This document shows positions 51,716 to 62,672 of a stretch of 64,000 nt of DNA, piece by piece. The position numbers and the translations under genes were made by a program. How positions within the stretch are numbered: the stretch's first letter is position 1; each line of letters opens with the position of its first letter. Source of the DNA: Halopseudomonas aestusnigri (GTDB lineage Bacteria; Pseudomonadota; Gammaproteobacteria; Pseudomonadales; Pseudomonadaceae). The DNA lies in assembly GCF_002197985.1 (NCBI RefSeq), contig NZ_NBYK01000001.1:441023-505022 (forward strand). Direction: 5' to 3'. A model generated the notes under the pieces. That model did not search any database, had not been told where the DNA came from, and saw nothing but the letters and a program-made list of their open reading frames with translations.

Positions 51716-52105
51716 TCAATCCATGTCGACGGGGTAGACGCCGTCCTTGTCATGAACTTCCTTGCCGCTGAGCGGCGGGTTGAAGACGCACGCCATTTTC
51801 ATGTCCTCGGTGCCACCACGCAGCATGTGCTCGTCGTGCTTGTCGAGGATGTAGAGCGTGCCCGGTCGGATCTGGTAGACCTTGCCGTCGGACAGGGTCT
51901 CGATCTCGCCGTTGCCACTCATGCAGTAGACCGACTCCAAATGGTTCTTGTAATGGATGTGGGTCTCTTTGTTGGCATAAATGGTGGTGATGTGGAACGA
52001 GAACCCCATGTTGTCGTCCTTGAGCAGCATCCGGGTGCTCTCCCAGGTCTCGGTGGCGACACGGCGCTCGGAGTTTTCACAGTCTTGCAGTGTACGTACG
52101 ATCAT
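51716..52105 (-). CDS. ectC: L-ectoine synthase EctC
   Basis: A 129-residue cupin enzyme that closes N-gamma-acetyl-diaminobutyrate into ectoine. The sequence starts [40 protein letters not shown] holds metal ligands (Glu of HLESVYC), and [17 protein letters not shown] the final His. Length matches the family. It follows ectB by 13 bases. Confidence 0.96.
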
Positions 52106-52118
52106 GGATTCGGGTTCC

Positions 52119-53941
<1,823 letters not shown>

Positions 53942-53978
53942 AACGGGTTCCTAATGCTTATGCATAAATGCTTTTTTA

Positions 53979-54008
53979 ATAATAAACATATCCAAAAAAT
54001 TATCTCAA
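53979..54008 (-). promoter_or_regulatory. Candidate sigma-70-type promoter of ectABC-ask
   Basis: On the minus strand TTGAGA, 18 bases and TATTAT lie within a markedly AT-rich stretch 38 bases before ectA. Between the -10 box and the start is the ten-base palindrome TTATGCATAA (53958-53967), a possible operator. Osmotic induction is expected, but no ectR-type regulator gene is present in the window. Confidence 0.5.
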
Positions 54009-54196
54009 CCGGCTGTAAGTGCTGATTTTTATGGGATTTGCTCGCATGCCATATATTTATAGCTGTTAAATAGATCTGTAATGAAAGTGTTTTTTAGTAT
54101 AAAGATTTTGCCGGAAAGCCAGCTGCGGCAAGGCCTGCGCCCGGATTCGCGCATCGGGCATCGGTAAGAAGGGGAAGGGCGTCGCGGGAGGGAGCG

Positions 54197-54218
54197 CACC
54201 CGCTCGTCAGAGCGGGTG
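54197..54218. terminator. Hairpin after rhlG
   Basis: CACCCGCT and AGCGGGTG form an eight-pair stem with a six-base loop between rhlG and the ect promoter. A T-run lies on the far side only, so it is a weak terminator candidate for the leftward rhlG transcript. Confidence 0.4.
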
Positions 54219-54240
54219 ACAAAAGCAGTACGTCAGGGCG

Positions 54241-55011
54241 TTACAGGGTGAAGCCGCCATCGATGGGGATGATGTTGCCGGTCATATAGGCTCCACCAGT
54301 TCCGGCGAGCATGATCGCAAGGGCGGACATCTCCTCTTCGCGTCCCCAGCGCTTCATTGGGATGTGTTTGCAATCCTCGGCCATGGCGTCGGGATCGGAG
54401 TGAATGTGGCTGGTCATCTTGCTCGGGAACCGGCCCGGCGCAATGACGTTGACGTTGATATGTTCGCTCACCAGTTCTCGGGCCAGGTTGCGTGACAGTT
54501 GATGCACTGCCGCCTTGCTCGGGCCGTAGGAGTAGGCCTGTTCGCCGAACGAGCTGATGCCGGCAACCGAGCCGATGTTGATGATGCGGGCCGGGTTCTC
54601 GGCGCTGGCGGAGCTGCGCAGCAGCGGCAGCAGTTGCTGGATACAGCTGAACACCGAAATCACGTTCAGTTGCATGACCTTTTCCCAGCCCGATACCGGG
54701 AACTCCTCCAGCGGGGCACCCCAACTGGTGCCGGCATTGTTGACCAGAATGTCCAGTCGGTCGGTGATTGCCTGCACGTCTTCGGCCAGCTGGCGGGCGC
54801 CCTGCTCGGTGGAGAGGTCTGCAGCCAGAGCGATGCACTCGCCGTATTGGCTCAGTTGCTCGGCGGTTTGCTGGCCCTCGGCAATCTTGCGGCAGCAGAT
54901 GATGACCCGGGCGCCTGCTTCGAGATAGCCCTGGGCGATCATGCGGCCAATGCCGCGGCTGCCGCCGGTAACCAGCGCGGTACGGCCGGTCAGACTGAAA
55001 TAGTGCTGCAT
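54241..55011 (-). CDS. rhlG: Beta-ketoacyl reductase RhlG-like SDR
   Basis: A 256-residue NADP-type SDR with TGGSRGIG (cofactor), NNAG, IGSVAG (Ser) and YGPSK (Tyr, Lys). MQHYFSLTGRTALVTGGSRG, YPVSGWEKVMQLN-like and NPARIINIGSVAGISSFGEQ resemble P. aeruginosa RhlG along the whole length. RhlG reduces 3-oxoacyl substrates and was first linked to rhamnolipid precursors, though its role there is debated. Together with the phaG gene 36 kb away it points to hydroxy-fatty-acid metabolism. It lies divergent from speA. Confidence 0.88.
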   Translation of the reverse strand: MQHYFSLTGRTALVTGGSRGIGRMIAQGYLEAGARVIICCRKIAEGQQTAEQLSQYGECIALAADLSTEQGARQLAEDVQAITDRLDILVNNAGTSWGAPLEEFPVSGWEKVMQLNVISVFSCIQQLLPLLRSSASAENPARIINIGSVAGISSFGEQAYSYGPSKAAVHQLSRNLARELVSEHINVNVIAPGRFPSKMTSHIHSDPDAMAEDCKHIPMKRWGREEEMSALAIMLAGTGGAYMTGNIIPIDGGFTL

Positions 55012-55126
55012 AGGGGGTGCTCCTCGAGGTAAGTAAATCGGAGGTTGTTGTGTCGATTCTTACGGTAAACCAGCGTTCAGCAGCCACCCTAGGGTTATCC
55101 AGTGCGCAAATGCTCTGTTATGGCCG

Positions 55127-55159
55127 GCGGATGACTGTCGCTGCGAGTCATCCGCTTTT
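55127..55159 (+). terminator. Terminator-like hairpin in the speA leader
   Basis: GCGGATGACT and AGTCATCCGC form a ten-pair stem with a nine-base loop followed by TTTTCGCTT, about 90 bases before speA. No rightward gene ends here, so it may be a leader attenuator of speA or a block to read-through from the opposite side. Confidence 0.5.
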
Positions 55160-55249
55160 CGCTTATCCTGTGACGCATGGACCTGCGGAACTGTCGTCAT
55201 TATCGGCGTTCACAATGGCGAGCCAGTGACTGAGTAAAGTGAGGAAGCG

Positions 55250-57169
55250 ATGGGACCTGTTCGACGTTCGCGCAAAGAAGATGCATCTGCCTGGACCGTG
55301 GCCGACAGCCGCAGTGTTTACGGCATTCGGCACTGGGGTGCCGGGTATTTCAACGTTAATGAACAGGGTCATGTTGAGGTCATGCCACGTGGTCCGGAAG
55401 GCACGGGTATTGACCTGCATGAGCTGGTTGGTCAGCTGCGCGAAAGCGGGCTGGACCTGCCCCTGCTGGTGCGTTTCCCGGACATTCTGCAGGCACGGGT
55501 ACGGCAGTTGACCGGTGCCTTTGATCGCAATATCGAGTCGCTGGGCTACGGCAGCGGCTATACCGCGCTGTATCCGATCAAGGTCAACCAGCAGGAAGCC
55601 GTAGTCGAGAACATCATCGCCACCGAGAACGTCTCGATCGGCCTGGAAGCCGGTTCCAAACCGGAGTTGATGGCAGTGCTGGCGCTGGCGCCCAAGGGCG
55701 GCACCATCGTCTGCAATGGGTACAAGGATCGCGAGTTTATCCATCTGGCGCTGATCGGCCAGAAGCTGGGTCACAAGGTGTTCATCGTTATCGAGAAGGA
55801 GTCCGAGGTCCGGCTGGTGATCGAGGAAGCCGAAAAGCTCGGGGTGACGCCGAACATTGGGTTGCGCGTGCGCCTGTCATCGCTGGCGTCCAGCAAGTGG
55901 GCCGACACCGGCGGGGAGAAATCCAAGTTTGGGCTGTCGGCAGCGCAACTGCTGCGGGTGGTAGAGGCGTTCCGCGCGGCCAATTTGCAGGATGGGGTTC
56001 GCCTGCTGCATTTTCACATGGGGTCGCAGATTGCCAATCTGGCCGACTACCAGCATGGCTTCCGTGAGGCCATTCGTTATTTCGGCGAGCTGCGTGCGTT
56101 GGGTCTGCCGGTCGATCATATCGACGTTGGTGGTGGGCTGGGGGTCGACTACGACGGCACCCATTCGCGCAATGCCAGCTCGATCAACTACGACGTCAAC
56201 GAGTATGCCCAGACCGTCGTCGGCATGCTGCGCGACTTCTGCGATGAGCAGGGCCTGTCGCACCCGCATATCTTTTCCGAAAGCGGCCGGGCGATGACCG
56301 CGCACCATGCGGTGCTGATCGTGCAGGTAACCGATGTTGAGCGTTACAACGACGTCATGCCCCAGATTGATGATCTGGAGGCGTTGCCGCTGGTGGTGCG
56401 CAATCTGGTCAGGCTGCAGGACCAGCACGATGTCGAGATGGTGACCGAGACCTACTGGCGGGCCACCCACTATATGGCGGATGTAGCGGCGCAGTACGCT
56501 GAGGGCAAGCTGACGCTGTCGGAGAAAGCGCTGGCCGAGCAGTGCTACTACGCGTTGTGCAATCGTCTGCATACCCTGCTGAAGGCGCGCCAGCGCTCGC
56601 ATCGTCAGGTGCTGGACGAGTTGAACGACAAGATGGCCGACAAGTACATCTGCAACTTCTCGGTGTTCCAGAGCCTGCCCGATACCTGGGCGATTGATCA
56701 GGTACTGCCGATCATGCCGCTGGATCGCCTAGAGGAGGAGCCGCTGCGCAGGGCGGTGCTGCAGGATCTGACCTGTGACTCCGACGGCAAGATCCGCCAT
56801 TACGTGGATGAACAGAGCATTGAAAATAGTCTGCCGGTGCACGATCTGCGCGAGGGTGAGGACTATCTGCTGGGTATCTTCCTGGTCGGCGCCTATCAGG
56901 AGATTCTGGGTGACATGCACAACCTGTTCGGCGATACCGACTCGGTTAACGTATACCTGCGCCCGGACGGCAAGGTGGTGCACGGTGGTATCGAAACCCA
57001 CGATACCATCGAAGACATGTTGCGCTACGTGCACTTTGCCCCGGACGAACTGGTGACGCTGTATCGCGACAAGGTCTCCGGCGCCCGCCTGAGTCCGGCC
57101 GAGCGCACGCGCTTTGTGGATGCGCTGCGGCTCGGCCTGACGCGGTCGTCCTACCTGAGCGCTGAGTAA
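55250..57169 (+). CDS. speA: Biosynthetic arginine decarboxylase SpeA
   Basis: A 639-residue PLP enzyme converting arginine to agmatine, the first step of polyamine synthesis. The PLP Lys lies in [32 protein letters not shown] and [16 protein letters not shown] are the pocket segments, and [20 protein letters not shown] is in the C-terminal beta domain. Length and sequence are standard for proteobacterial SpeA. GAGGAA lies six bases before the ATG. It converges on the operon that follows. Confidence 0.95.
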
Positions 57170-57173
57170 GGCG

Positions 57174-57890
57174 TCAGGCGGCCTGTTTCTGCAAGCTGAT
57201 CCAGGTCGCTTCGGCCCAGCCTACGGGTTGGCCAGCGGCGTCGTAGAGGGCCGTGCCGGCCTGATGCTTGCGTCCGTCGTGGGCAATGGCCCAGCCGGCT
57301 ACCACAAGTTGCTCTCCTACCTTGATCGGTCGCTCAAGATGCGCCGCGAAGCGGCCAAGCAGGGCGGTACCTGCATGCTCTCTGACCGCGAAGTATCCTG
57401 GGCAGTCCAGAGCTGCCCAGATGAACTCCGGCGCCACGGTACCGTCTCCCGCATCCAGTGTGCTGTCGGGCGTCCAGGGGCAGGCCACGGTGCTGTCGCG
57501 GCCGGTCACTGGACCGGTATGCAATAGTAGGCCGTCGTGCTCGCAGCGGTTGGTGCCGCAAACAAAGCAGCCGGGCAGCCCGTGCTCCTCATAGCCGCTG
57601 AACCGTGGCCGCGCCGCTTCGGCGTCGGCCAGGCTGATCGCAGCAGGCGGCGTCAGCTGAAGCTGGTAGGGTCTGGCGCTGCCGAGCAGGGTGTCGCCCT
57701 GCAGCAGGCGAGCACCGTCGCTGTCGCGAACAATCTGCAGTTCGGTATCCAGCGGCGGCGGTGCGTGCAGGGTGACCTGGCAGGGCTCGGCCATGGCGTT
57801 GGCCAACAGGCCGCAGACATAGCCGCCGTTGCCGCTATTTGGCGGCCCGCAGAAGCGCTTGCGAATGATGGTCGGGATGGTGCTTTGCAT
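57174..57890 (-). CDS. Hotdog-fold thioesterase-like protein
   Basis: A 238-residue protein that looks like a double-hotdog fold: residues about 15-30 have KRFCGPPNSGNGGYVCGLLA, similar to acyl-CoA thioesterases, and FAAHLERPIKVGEQLVVAGW lies in the second part. An insert with Cys residues (GLPGCFVCGTNRCEHDGL) separates the halves and could bind a metal. I chose the ATG at 57890 because AAGGA lies eight bases upstream. It is the last gene of an operon with a halohydrin-dehalogenase-like protein and an epoxide hydrolase. The substrate is not known. Confidence 0.65.
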   Translation of the reverse strand: MQSTIPTIIRKRFCGPPNSGNGGYVCGLLANAMAEPCQVTLHAPPPLDTELQIVRDSDGARLLQGDTLLGSARPYQLQLTPPAAISLADAEAARPRFSGYEEHGLPGCFVCGTNRCEHDGLLLHTGPVTGRDSTVACPWTPDSTLDAGDGTVAPEFIWAALDCPGYFAVREHAGTALLGRFAAHLERPIKVGEQLVVAGWAIAHDGRKHQAGTALYDAAGQPVGWAEATWISLQKQAA

Positions 57891-57901
57891 GAACATTTTC
57901 C

Positions 57902-58582
57902 TTAATGGCTCCAGCCGCCGCAGACCGGAAACACCTGGCCAACAAAGCAGTTGGCGGCGTCGGAGCATAGGTAGGCGGCAAAGTGGGCGTCTTCTTCTGC
58001 CGACACCAGACGGCCGAGCGGGACTTCCCGTTGCAGTCGGGCCTGGAAGGCCGGGTTGGCCTGGATCTCGGCGGGGAAATAGGTCGGGTTGTCGACGAAA
58101 TTCTGCGCGATGGCATTGACCTGAATGCCCTTGGCGGCGACCTCGGCGCCCACCGCCTGGACCCAGGCCAGTTGCGCGCCGCGGGCGGCGCTGTAGCTGG
58201 AGGCGCGCTTCATGCCGCGCAGGGCCGAGGCGCTGCCCATCAGCAGAATCTTGCCGTGGCCGCGCTCAGTCATCGCAGGCAGAACCGCACGGGCGAAGCG
58301 CGGCAGCGGATCGACCATGTGGCGAAACAGCAGGCCCCATTCCTCGTCTGCTACCTGATCGGCAGGTGTGCTCGGTGCAGGAACGCCGAGGTTGAGCAGC
58401 AGCACGTCGAACTCGCCGGCTTCGGCAATCAGCTTCTGCGGCGCCTTCGGGTCCAGAAAATCGCGTGTGTCGGCGATAATCTCAGCACCGCAGCTCTCCA
58501 GCGTACGCTGCAGCGCCGGCCCCATGAAATCGCTGGCCTGGGTCAGCAGGATGCGCTTATTGCTAAGGTCGCAAAGGCTCAT
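57902..58582 (-). CDS. Putative halohydrin dehalogenase (SDR-like)
   Basis: A 226-residue protein with the SDR fold but not the dehydrogenase signatures. In place of TGxxxGxG it has T14-X4-F19-X-G21 (LTQASDFMG); NNAG is replaced by NLGV; and the catalytic set is Ser117-X12-Tyr130-X3-Arg134 (GSAS to YSAAR), with Arg instead of Lys. These are the two motifs that define halohydrin dehalogenases (HheA-HheG), which use no NAD(P) and convert vicinal halohydrins to epoxides. NPTYFP near residue 165-170 lies where the halide pocket of HheC is built. It sits between a hotdog-like protein gene and an epoxide hydrolase gene. Activity and substrate are inferred. Confidence 0.7.
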   Translation of the reverse strand: MSLCDLSNKRILLTQASDFMGPALQRTLESCGAEIIADTRDFLDPKAPQKLIAEAGEFDVLLLNLGVPAPSTPADQVADEEWGLLFRHMVDPLPRFARAVLPAMTERGHGKILLMGSASALRGMKRASSYSAARGAQLAWVQAVGAEVAAKGIQVNAIAQNFVDNPTYFPAEIQANPAFQARLQREVPLGRLVSAEEDAHFAAYLCSDAANCFVGQVFPVCGGWSH

Positions 58583-58596
58583 TGTGTGTCTCCCTG

Positions 58597-59565
58597 TCAG
58601 GTTGCGGGGAAGTGGTGTTCCAGGAAGGGCAGCAGGAAGCTGTTTACCTCGTCTGGCTTCTCGGCCTGAATCCAGTGGCCGCAGTCGGCAATGACGTGTT
58701 GCTCAACCTTCGGCACCACGCCCGGCATTTTCTTGATGGTATAGGCTTCAAGGATACCGACCGGGTCGCGGTCACCAATCAGGAACAACGCCGGTTGTTC
58801 GATCTGACGGCCTGCCAGCTGCTCGGTGCGCTCCCAGTTGCGCTCAAAGTTGCGATACCAGTTGACCGGGCCGCGGAAGCCGCTTTGTTCAAAGGTTTTG
58901 ACGTAGACCTCGAAGGCCTCTTCCGAGCACCACGCAGGGGGCTTTCCCGGATCACTGTAGTCGTCCAGCCAGGCCGCGTCGGCTGGCTTGTCCTGCACCA
59001 GGGCGCCACCCTCCTGGCTGTCCAGGCCGTGCATCATCAGACGCATGGTGCGCGGAATGTCAGACGCCAGCTCGGCCTCGGCAAGACCTGGCTTCTGGAA
59101 GTAGAGAATGTAATGGAAGCGGTCCTTGTAGGCCTCGCGCATCATGTTGATGGCCGGCTGCCTGGGCCGCCCGCCGAAGGGGACCGACATGCCGCAGACC
59201 GCCTTGACACGCGCTGGCTCCAGCAGCGCCAGGTGCCAGGCGACCGGTGCGCCCCAGTCATGCCCGATCATGGCCACCTGCTGATGGCCAAAATGGTTCA
59301 TTGCGCCCTGGATATCGGCGCACAGGGTGATCAGATCGTAGGCCTCGACCGCTTCCGGTGCTTCGGTTGCGCCATAACCGCGCATCTCGGGAGCAAAGAC
59401 GCGGTAGCCTTGCGCCGCGAGTGCTGCGATTTGATGGCGCCAGGAGTACCAGCATTCGGGGAAACCGTGCAGCAGCCAGACCGGCTTGCCGCTTTCTGGG
59501 CCGGCGATATGCACGCTAAGCCTTATGCCGTTGACCTTGATCAGCTGTTGATGTGTCTGCTGCAT
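58597..59565 (-). CDS. Epoxide hydrolase-type alpha/beta hydrolase
   Basis: A 322-residue alpha/beta hydrolase with oxyanion motif HGFPE (33-37), Asp103 nucleophile in IGHDWGAPVAWH, and His in ADCGHWIQAEKPDEV. An Asp at the elbow, with a conserved Trp after it, marks epoxide hydrolases and haloalkane dehalogenases; HGFPE and the Tyr-rich cap (RFHYILYFQKPG, PVNWYRN) favour the former. The ATG at 59565 follows GGAGAG. It is the first gene of a three-gene operon, followed by the dehalogenase-like gene 14 bases on, which supports joint action on epoxides. Confidence 0.83.
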   Translation of the reverse strand: MQQTHQQLIKVNGIRLSVHIAGPESGKPVWLLHGFPECWYSWRHQIAALAAQGYRVFAPEMRGYGATEAPEAVEAYDLITLCADIQGAMNHFGHQQVAMIGHDWGAPVAWHLALLEPARVKAVCGMSVPFGGRPRQPAINMMREAYKDRFHYILYFQKPGLAEAELASDIPRTMRLMMHGLDSQEGGALVQDKPADAAWLDDYSDPGKPPAWCSEEAFEVYVKTFEQSGFRGPVNWYRNFERNWERTEQLAGRQIEQPALFLIGDRDPVGILEAYTIKKMPGVVPKVEQHVIADCGHWIQAEKPDEVNSFLLPFLEHHFPAT

Positions 59566-59792
59566 ACTGCTCTCCAAAGAATCATAAGCCGACACTATGG
59601 CAAATCGATGCCGTGATGGCGCGATTGTCGCATGCGTATTCACCAGCCGAAGTGACGAATATCCGTACGATGCATGATTGACAATGTCTGTTGCCGAGAG
59701 GTCTGAATAGTCGCAGCGGTTTGGTTTCGCTGAGCTATGCTCAGCCTATTATTGCAACAGCATGCAGTCCATTCAGGGAGCAAGGGCGGCAG

Positions 59793-62672
59793 ATGAAGAA
59801 GACACGTCCATGGATAACGCTTCAGGGACTTATTGCGGTCTCCATTGTTGTCTGCCTGCTCGCCATGTTGGTGGTCACGGCGTTTCAGGGGTACCGGGGG
59901 GCTAGAGCCGTGCTGGTAGCAGCGGCGTCCGATTCGGCTAACCAGGTTGGCTCGCTGCTGGACGAACGCGCCGAGAGGTTGCTCTCGCCCGGCGAAAACG
60001 CTCTGCGAATGCTGGTGCACGATCCGTTGGTGAGCGCCGACAACCTTTCCGATCGGGTCGGCAGGTTGCCGGCGCTGGTTCAACTGGTGCGTGATGGGAG
60101 CCCCGTAAGTGCTGTCTATGCCGGCTATCCCGATGGGGAGTTCTTTCTGGTTCGCCGGGTACCGGAGGGCGGGATAGACGGATACCAGTTGCCCGCAGGT
60201 ACGCATTTTCTGGTGCAATCTATCGAGCGTGACAGTGACGGAATGCGCGGCAGGTGGCTGTTTTTCGATCTGTCGCTGCATCAGATTGGCAGTAGGCCGG
60301 TACCCGAATACCGCTTCGACCCTCGGACCCGGCCCTGGTATCAGATGGCGCAGCAGTCTGACGACGTTGTTCTGACAGAACCCTATCTGTTCTTTACCAC
60401 CCATCAGGTTGGGCTGACGATGGCGCAGCGCAGCATGCTTACAGCTGCGGTCATCGGGCTGGATGCGGCGGTGGATGATCTTGCGGTTGAGGTCAAGGAT
60501 ATGCACCTGACGCCGGGGACCGAGATGGCCATCGTGCGCGGCGAACGCGTTGTTGCCTACCCTGACCTGGAACGGCTGATTGTGCTTGAGGGGGCAGATG
60601 CGCCCCGGCTGGCGACGCTTGAGGAGCTGCAGGTGCCGGTGCTCAGCGAGCTGGCAGCCATGCGGACGGGCTTCTCGCAAGTGCAGCTGTTGTCGCGGGA
60701 TGACGGTGACTGGTACGTGATCAGCCTGCCGCTGACCCGTCTCGCCGAAGACCTGGGGCGGGTGTTGATCGCCATTCCCGCCAGTGAGTTGCTGTCCGGT
60801 GTTATTTCTATCCTGAAGCAGCAGGCGGTGCTGGCGCTGCTGATGATGTTGCTTCTGGTCATGATCGGCTGGGCGCTGGGGCAGCGTCTGGGCGGACCTT
60901 TAAAGGCGCTGGCTGACCAGGTTGGCAAACTGGCGGACATGGACTTCAGTCAGAGCATCAGAGTGCGCTCGCGTATCCGTGAAGTGAGCGATCTGGGTGG
61001 GGTGCTGGGGCGCATGGCTGGTGCGATTCACCACTTTCAGCAGATATCGCTGGCCCTGAGTCGTGAAACACGACTGGAGCGCATGCTGGATGTGGTGCTG
61101 GAGAATCTTATCGAGATGGCCAAGGGGCGCGGTGGTGCCGTGTTTCTGTTCGAGGAGGACAGTGGCGAGTTGATACTGGCCAGCGGCATCAACAGTGAGT
61201 ATTACCCGCAGTCGCTGAAACTGGATGAGGCGCTGCGGTCTGACCCCGCCCGCGTACTGTCGACCCGTCTTGATCGTGAGCATCGCTATCTGACCCTGGC
61301 GCTGCGTGATCGCCAGGAGGTGCTGCTGGGGGTGTTGGTACTGGAGGTGTCTCCCGCTTTGCCGGCGGCGGCCGTGAAGAGTCTTCGGCAGTTCCTGGAC
61401 AGCTTGTCCGGGACGCTGGCCGTAGCGATTGAAACGCGCCAGTTGTTTGAGGGTCAGCAGCACCTTCTGGAGTCGATCATCCGCCTGCTGGCTACGGCGA
61501 TTGACGCCAAGTCTCCCTACACTGGCGGGCACTGTGACCGGGTTCCACAGCTGGCGGAAATGCTGATCAATCGCGCGCTTGGGGCCGATAACGGATCGCT
61601 TGCGGGCTTCTCGATGGACGCAGAGGAGTTCTATGCGTTTCGTATCGCCGCCTGGCTGCATGACTGCGGCAAGATCACCAGTCCGGAATATGTTGTCGAC
61701 AAGGCAACCAAGCTGGAAACGCTCTACAACCGAATTCATGAACTTCGAACCCGCTTCGAGGTGCTATGGCGTGACGCCGAAATTCGCTACTGGCAAGGGC
61801 GTGTCGGCGGCCGTGATGAGCACGAATTGGCGATCGAGCTGGCGCAAACCCATGAACGGCTGCAGGCAGAGTTTGCCGAGGTCGCCAGGGCCAATGTTGG
61901 TGGCGAGTTCATGCAAGAGGATGACATAGAACGGCTGGGCAGGATTGCCGAGCAGACCTGGACCAGGCACTTCGATGACCGGTTGGGTCTGTCCCATGAG
62001 GAGTTGAAGCGACTCGAGGGCGTGCCTGCGCCAGCACTGCCGGTAGTGGAGCACCTCATCAGCGACAAGCCCGAGCACAAGGTGCCTTGGGGCGACCGGA
62101 AGCCGCCGGTGGCCAAGGATGATCCGCGTAACAGATGGGGTTTTGATATGGACCCGCCCGAGTACAGCTTCGACCTCGGAGAACTCTACAACTTGTCGAT
62201 CCAGCGCGGCACCCTGACCGCCGAGGAGCGCTTCAAGATCAATGACCATATTGTGCAGACGCTGATGATGCTCAGTACCTTACCGTTCCCGCGGCATCTG
62301 AGAAGCGTGCCGGAGTTGGCCGCGACACACCATGAGCGGCTGGATGGCGCCGGGTATCCGCGCAGGCTCGGCGAAGATCAGCTTTCAGTGCAGGATCGGG
62401 TGCTGGCCATTGCCGATATTTTTGAGGCGCTTACAGCGGGCGATCGTCCCTACAAGCCGGCCAAGACTCTGTCTGAAGCCGTCAGAATCATGCTGTTCAT
62501 GGCGAAGGACCGGCATATTGATGCGGTCCTGCTGGCATTGTTTTTGCGCACCGGTGTGCACGAACAGTACGCGCAGCTGTTTCTGCACGATGCGCAGCGT
62601 GATCAGGTCGACGTGGCGGGTTGTCTCGCCCAGTTGCGTGACTGGGGGTTGATTGATGGGCGGGACTGTTAG
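59793..62672 (+). CDS. Cache-HAMP-HD-GYP domain sensor protein
   Basis: A 959-residue membrane sensor, probably a c-di-GMP phosphodiesterase. Domains: helix 1 (about 10-32), a periplasmic double Cache (40-330, with YRFDPRTRPWYQMAQQ), helix 2 (344-364), HAMP (365-415), a GAF-like region (425-565), and HD-GYP. The HD part has TGGHCDR (577-583) and HDCGK (623-627); the GYP part has HHERLDGAGYP (846-856). About 160 residues more than usual separate the two, including a charged helical stretch. All metal ligands seem present. It responds to an unknown periplasmic ligand. ATG at 59793 follows AAGGGCGG. It is transcribed alone. Confidence 0.88.
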   Translation: MKKTRPWITLQGLIAVSIVVCLLAMLVVTAFQGYRGARAVLVAAASDSANQVGSLLDERAERLLSPGENALRMLVHDPLVSADNLSDRVGRLPALVQLVRDGSPVSAVYAGYPDGEFFLVRRVPEGGIDGYQLPAGTHFLVQSIERDSDGMRGRWLFFDLSLHQIGSRPVPEYRFDPRTRPWYQMAQQSDDVVLTEPYLFFTTHQVGLTMAQRSMLTAAVIGLDAAVDDLAVEVKDMHLTPGTEMAIVRGERVVAYPDLERLIVLEGADAPRLATLEELQVPVLSELAAMRTGFSQVQLLSRDDGDWYVISLPLTRLAEDLGRVLIAIPASELLSGVISILKQQAVLALLMMLLLVMIGWALGQRLGGPLKALADQVGKLADMDFSQSIRVRSRIREVSDLGGVLGRMAGAIHHFQQISLALSRETRLERMLDVVLENLIEMAKGRGGAVFLFEEDSGELILASGINSEYYPQSLKLDEALRSDPARVLSTRLDREHRYLTLALRDRQEVLLGVLVLEVSPALPAAAVKSLRQFLDSLSGTLAVAIETRQLFEGQQHLLESIIRLLATAIDAKSPYTGGHCDRVPQLAEMLINRALGADNGSLAGFSMDAEEFYAFRIAAWLHDCGKITSPEYVVDKATKLETLYNRIHELRTRFEVLWRDAEIRYWQGRVGGRDEHELAIELAQTHERLQAEFAEVARANVGGEFMQEDDIERLGRIAEQTWTRHFDDRLGLSHEELKRLEGVPAPALPVVEHLISDKPEHKVPWGDRKPPVAKDDPRNRWGFDMDPPEYSFDLGELYNLSIQRGTLTAEERFKINDHIVQTLMMLSTLPFPRHLRSVPELAATHHERLDGAGYPRRLGEDQLSVQDRVLAIADIFEALTAGDRPYKPAKTLSEAVRIMLFMAKDRHIDAVLLALFLRTGVHEQYAQLFLHDAQRDQVDVAGCLAQLRDWGLIDGRDC

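Follow-up and report, generated by a model that had tools for sequence, protein, structure and literature searches.

Does a short-chain dehydrogenase/reductase (SDR)-like protein encoded directly behind an epoxide hydrolase gene in Halopseudomonas aestusnigri release halide from haloalcohols, and do the two enzymes work as a pair? We addressed this question for a 64,000-nucleotide stretch of contig NZ_NBYK01000001.1 (hereafter, the window), in which the central features are as follows.

57902..58582, minus strand: D-type halohydrin dehalogenase (HHDH; HheD family), 226 amino acids, assigned from motifs, tree and fold
58583..58596, minus strand: 14-bp intergenic gap between the hydrolase and HHDH genes, containing AGGGAG upstream of the HHDH start codon (ATG)
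58597..59565, minus strand: alpha/beta-hydrolase epoxide hydrolase of the EphA/soluble epoxide hydrolase (sEH) type, 322 amino acids, with D103, Y152, Y237, D267 and H297

Based on the analyses described here, we consider it likely that the two genes form a chromosomal two-step dehalogenation unit.

The SDR-like protein is assigned to the D-type halohydrin dehalogenases

An earlier reading of the DNA without database searches (the sequence-only reading) had recognized two HHDH motifs with exact spacings in this protein and had used them to set it apart from dehydrogenases. In the translated open reading frame (ORF), we indeed found motif 1 (T-X4-F/Y-X-G) formed by T14, F19 and G21 and motif 2 (S-X12-Y-X3-R) formed by S117, Y130 and R134. 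Among D-type relatives, motif 1 is present in 93/94 and motif 2 in 94/94, while each was found in 0/8 SDR controls, i.e. seven genome SDRs with loci (from 19 non-self matches) and the SDR at 54241-55011 of the window. Seven of these eight controls have the glycine motif, and five have the exact S-X12-Y-X3-K spacing. The sole exception for motif 1 among the 94 relatives has Leu for Thr; this Plasticicumulans copy (L075:10001-10657) would be skipped by a strict motif filter.

In a phylogenetic tree, the window HHDH groups with a set containing HheD2 and HheD8 (support 95/92), and the SDRs are set apart at 100/96; clustering inside the NAD(P)-dependent SDRs, which the sequence-only reading had named as a refuting outcome, was not seen. 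Besides D-type proteins and SDRs, the references in this tree were a single HheB, a single HheC and a portion of 6a41, without members of the A, E, F and G types. When the modelled HHDH was compared with solved structures, HheD2, HheD8 and HheB took the first places. The nearest solved relatives, HheD2 (7b73) and HheD8 (8xxb), share 61-64% identity with the window HHDH in structural alignments and have the same motifs. As for a possible closed nucleotide site with a halide pocket, motif 1 takes the place of the glycine motif, and at the level of the fold, the model matches a HheD8 mutant with bound chloride.

It could be argued that we are dealing with an ordinary NAD(P)-dependent SDR in which the motif positions have changed by drift. 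The general fold is the same, and many SDR family models match the protein, every one of them well below its cut-off. However, the motif residues are fixed in 18/18 HHDH orthologues of the hydrolase locus, and the solved structures closest to it are those of HHDHs, including a mutant with chloride. Motifs, tree and these structures all speak against this explanation, which is in our view very improbable. Together, motifs, tree and modelled fold support that the 226-amino acid protein is a D-type HHDH.

The upstream gene encodes an EphA/sEH-type epoxide hydrolase

The sequence-only reading had also called the upstream gene an epoxide hydrolase with Asp103 as the nucleophile, and closer inspection bears this out. 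The ORF is given here with the ATG at 59565 as its start; upstream, the frame stays open as far as a GTG at 59643. Asp103 sits in a GHDWG segment. Among solved proteins, EphA (5cw2) is the closest relative (E 6e-85), and entries for human sEH come next. In an alignment to human sEH with Asp335 as the only anchor, Tyr383, Tyr466, Asp496 and His524 of the human enzyme correspond to Y152, Y237, D267 and H297. The protein has the Asp nucleophile, two cap tyrosines, the Asp-His pair and the HGxP motif, the last as an HGFP segment with F35-P36. These catalytic residues are unchanged in 35/35 genus orthologues, a set that counts the window copy and leaves out the partial G023 copy, G026 having given no match. 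A TGA was flagged inside the match in G006; the alignment shows no stop there, and the flag may sit at the match end. As judged from the sequence, the upstream gene product is an epoxide hydrolase of the EphA/sEH type in which the Asp-Tyr-Tyr-Asp-His set is complete. It shares these five catalytic residues, as well as the HGFP segment, with the EphA/mammalian sEH family, whereas mammalian sEH has a second domain that the 322-amino acid bacterial protein lacks.

The same genome has a second epoxide-hydrolase-like gene with 35% identity (G000:C2:335103-336020), and second copies of 34-42% identity occur in many genus genomes.

A proposed two-step route from haloalcohol to diol

By analogy with characterised relatives, we suggest that the window HHDH would act as a cofactor-free enzyme of the SDR fold, in which Ser117, Tyr130 and Arg134 would deprotonate a vicinal haloalcohol. 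The alkoxide would displace the halide to give an epoxide, and the halide would be held in the pocket where SDRs bind NAD(P). Asp103 of the hydrolase would then attack the epoxide while Tyr152 and Tyr237 hold the ring oxygen, and the resulting ester would be hydrolysed by water activated via His297 and Asp267 to give the diol. Because the hydrolase step is irreversible, the overall direction would be toward the diol, whose formation would pull the reversible HHDH step forward. The short gap, the shared strand and the lack of any terminator-like site on the minus strand of 57100-59900 are consistent with co-transcription of the two genes, and flux through the two enzymes may be coupled. In the scan of 57100-59900, no sigma-70-like promoter was found on either strand.

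The HHDH could instead mainly open rings in vivo, with chloride, bromide or another small anion quenching epoxides in parallel to the hydrolase. HHDH reactions are described in a 2016 review as reversible, with several anions accepted (PMC4989007), and a 2018 review places the gene in all of its marine species of the lineage except P. litoralis but in just a single terrestrial species (PMC6922532). On the other hand, the adjoining hydrolase would make the net flow to the diol irreversible, and by record titles, many bearers of D-type genes come from pond, freshwater or soil (best 80 of 494 matching stretches). We regard a mainly ring-opening role as decidedly unlikely.

An accessory HHDH beside a near-universal hydrolase

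Using thresholds of E ≤1e-60 for the genus and E ≤1e-40 for a phylum sample, we detected the HHDH in 22/37 genus genomes (19/33 among genomes at least 90% complete) and in 4/398 genomes of the phylum sample, this genome among the 4. The hydrolase was found in 36/37 genus genomes with best matches of 65-100% identity, and the single miss, G026, is 81% complete. The hydrolase is, therefore, a near-universal gene of the genus, and the HHDH is accessory.

In 18 of the 22 genomes with an HHDH, the gene is at the hydrolase locus. In 17 of these, it lies directly behind the hydrolase gene on the same strand with a gap of 14-75 bp; two of the 17 pairs are on contigs of ~4 kb, in which only near genes are visible. 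All 18 locus HHDHs, which comprise the 17 adjacent copies and the G015 copy, fall into a single clade (support 95/97). The P. pelagia CL-AP6 copy (L065), which has 72% identity to the window HHDH, lies by the hydrolase. We took hydrolase regions from 14 of the 15 genomes without an HHDH, leaving out G023. In 12 of these 14, speA is in the same region upstream, and in the other two, the region is cut off by a nearby contig end or lies on a short contig. These data support a locus of ectABC, speA and hydrolase in the genus, where the regions reach that far, with the HHDH in the interval.

Several observations weigh against a dedicated pair. The hydrolase is present in 15/15 genus genomes without an HHDH (the G023 copy, at the end of a contig, is partial). 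In G015, 2.1 kb with an ORF on the opposite strand separate HHDH and hydrolase, and G019, G026, G027 and G031 carry an HHDH (66-67% identity) away from the hydrolase, which is elsewhere in G019, G027 and G031 and was not found in G026. Over 16 genomes, HHDH distances follow those of speA (r 0.88) nearly as closely as those of the hydrolase (r 0.91), with r 0.92 for hydrolase and speA and 0/2000 permutations as high for each correlation. Among loci taken as outside the genus, this hydrolase was found nearby at >31% identity in 0/72, many of them on short contigs, in a search that did not extend to other epoxide hydrolase families; two of the 72 have remote hydrolase matches (28-31%, E ≤1e-10). 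As to the assignment itself, the tool warned of long branches for HheB, HheC and the SDRs in the tree, and the HHDH model has a predicted local distance difference test score below 50 at residues 123-125, close to Tyr130.

Because the hydrolase is kept in all 15 genomes without an HHDH, its main job is not serving the HHDH; for the same reason, we do not uphold the description in the sequence-only reading of the hydrolase as the HHDH's own partner. Similarly, since the HHDH tracks speA nearly as well as it tracks the hydrolase, the correlation reflects shared inheritance with the locus rather than special co-evolution and is not by itself a sign of functional coupling.

These patterns bear on the alternative that the HHDH is real and acts alone, its place beside a resident hydrolase being a landing accident kept by vertical descent and its epoxide product being handled by any hydrolase or otherwise used. 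The unlinked copies, the separated copy in G015, the speA correlation and the D-type genes examined elsewhere, which are without this hydrolase as a partner and without a common neighbour, all fit this explanation. It accounts less well for the retention of the same strand and a short gap in 17 genomes across up to ~32% protein divergence, while ligB-like, yhhQ-like, GGDEF and thioesterase-like genes come and go in the same interval. We consider an HHDH acting alone to be possible but doubtful, and continue to favour the two-step unit.

How did the pair arise? The dN/dS values of 0.04-0.07 for the HHDH and 0.05-0.08 for the hydrolase (six pairs each) reveal strong purifying selection on both genes. 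When 35 genomes were placed in a tree from hydrolase and speA, a single group took in 12 of the 14 without an HHDH; the deep forks of this tree are weak. The hydrolase is probably older than the HHDH at the locus. We infer an order of events in which the hydrolase would have an older and wider role in Halopseudomonas, and the accessory HHDH would have come behind it once and then been maintained in part of the genus. In the sister species G015 (with HHDH) and G022 (without), the flanks are 94-96% identical and the hydrolase is kept (loci L040 and L199). This comparison suggests that a locus already holding an epoxide hydrolase can gain an HHDH, and the two close relatives provide a ready natural experiment on HHDH physiology.

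D-type HHDHs outside the genus

In a pattern search for D-type-like genes in the genomes of 84,980 species, 494/514 matches encode a relative, and the best 80 of the matching stretches were kept for detail. With 494 matching stretches in one scan, the statement in the sequence-only reading that known HHDHs are few no longer holds. Outside the genus, we saw no set of neighbours that D-type HHDHs have in common: no listed ORF group was present in more than 12/69 loci, in a count that left out HHDH shadow frames and one mixed SDR group (judged by the positions of representatives). Among 10 hand-picked flanking ORFs from six loci (four non-genus and the genus loci L050 and L053), Pfam revealed no epoxide or halogen enzyme, and one ORF was without any Pfam match. 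Carriage on plasmids was likewise rejected, as only one distant relative (42%) was found among 72,556 plasmid records at E ≤1e-30.

The unlinked genus HHDHs are at L050, L051, L052 and L053. Near that of L053 are DUF3087 and nitronate monooxygenase genes, and near that of L050 is an EAL/GGDEF gene.

Relation to published HHDHs

The genome encodes a polyester hydrolase that shows no difference, across the 264 residues aligned, from PDB 6sbn, the enzyme of Pseudomonas (now Halopseudomonas) aestusnigri. In the 2018 review, P. aestusnigri VGXO14 is already credited with an HHDH (WP_088273591.1), which was recognized because it resembles HheD12 from P. pelagia (PMC6922532). The enzyme kind is, therefore, already reported for this bacterial group, and the HHDH described here is not new. 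As for the pairing, the 2016 review counts two HHDH genes known at that time to share an operon with an epoxide hydrolase gene, and it states that other physiological HHDH functions cannot be excluded (PMC4989007). HheC of Agrobacterium radiobacter AD1 is encoded in one operon with an epoxide hydrolase, for which haloalcohol detoxification was proposed (PMC11976700), and the gene pairing here is the same. However, the AD1 enzyme is C-type, whereas the window has a D-type enzyme beside a hydrolase of nearly the whole genus. The HHDH-hydrolase pair in Halopseudomonas is not named in the titles and abstract starts among the matches listed, and a 2014 database-mining paper may describe it. Overall, the finding is sound and mostly known in kind. 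What the comparison adds is the contrast between a near-universal hydrolase and an accessory HHDH, with hints on how the pair arose.

Neighbouring genes

A third co-directional gene starts 11 bp past the HHDH stop.

57174..57890, minus strand: 238-amino acid protein with a modelled double-hotdog (TesB-like) fold

This protein has no Pfam or NCBIfam match at E ≤0.001. The gene is present in 24/37 genus genomes; 13 of these have it no more than ~1 kb away from the HHDH, and the remaining 11 have it at another place. Because it is close to the HHDH in only 13 of the 24, we rejected a fixed operon of hydrolase, HHDH and thioesterase; across the genus, the third gene is only loosely associated with the HHDH.

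Three points, namely the sEH type of the hydrolase, the neighbour resembling a thioesterase and a published record of epoxy fatty acids, led us to consider that the HHDH extends a native lipid repair, in which fatty-acid halohydrins would be converted to epoxy fatty acids and these to diols by the sEH-type hydrolase, rather than a pollutant pathway. Fatty-acid halohydrins would arise in water rich in halide, from the contact of unsaturated lipids with hypohalous acids; nearly the whole genus would keep the hydrolase for epoxy lipids, and the putative TesB-like thioesterase joins the gene run in some species. Epoxy fatty acids were reported in phytodetritus with attached bacteria, and chlorohydrins appear there as products of chemical work-up only (PMC3709756). 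Although we regard this idea as rather unlikely, it would, if true, give D-type HHDHs a natural substrate class.

Beyond the third gene, positions 51716-57169 of the window contain ectC, ectB, ectA, an SDR gene and speA, which adjoin the HHDH and hydrolase genes; a good part of this block is found again in other genomes of the genus. On the other side, next to the hydrolase gene, lies a large divergent sensor-type gene (59793-62672, plus strand), which is HD-GYP-like and a possible candidate for a regulator; in many genomes of the genus, relatives of it occupy the corresponding position.
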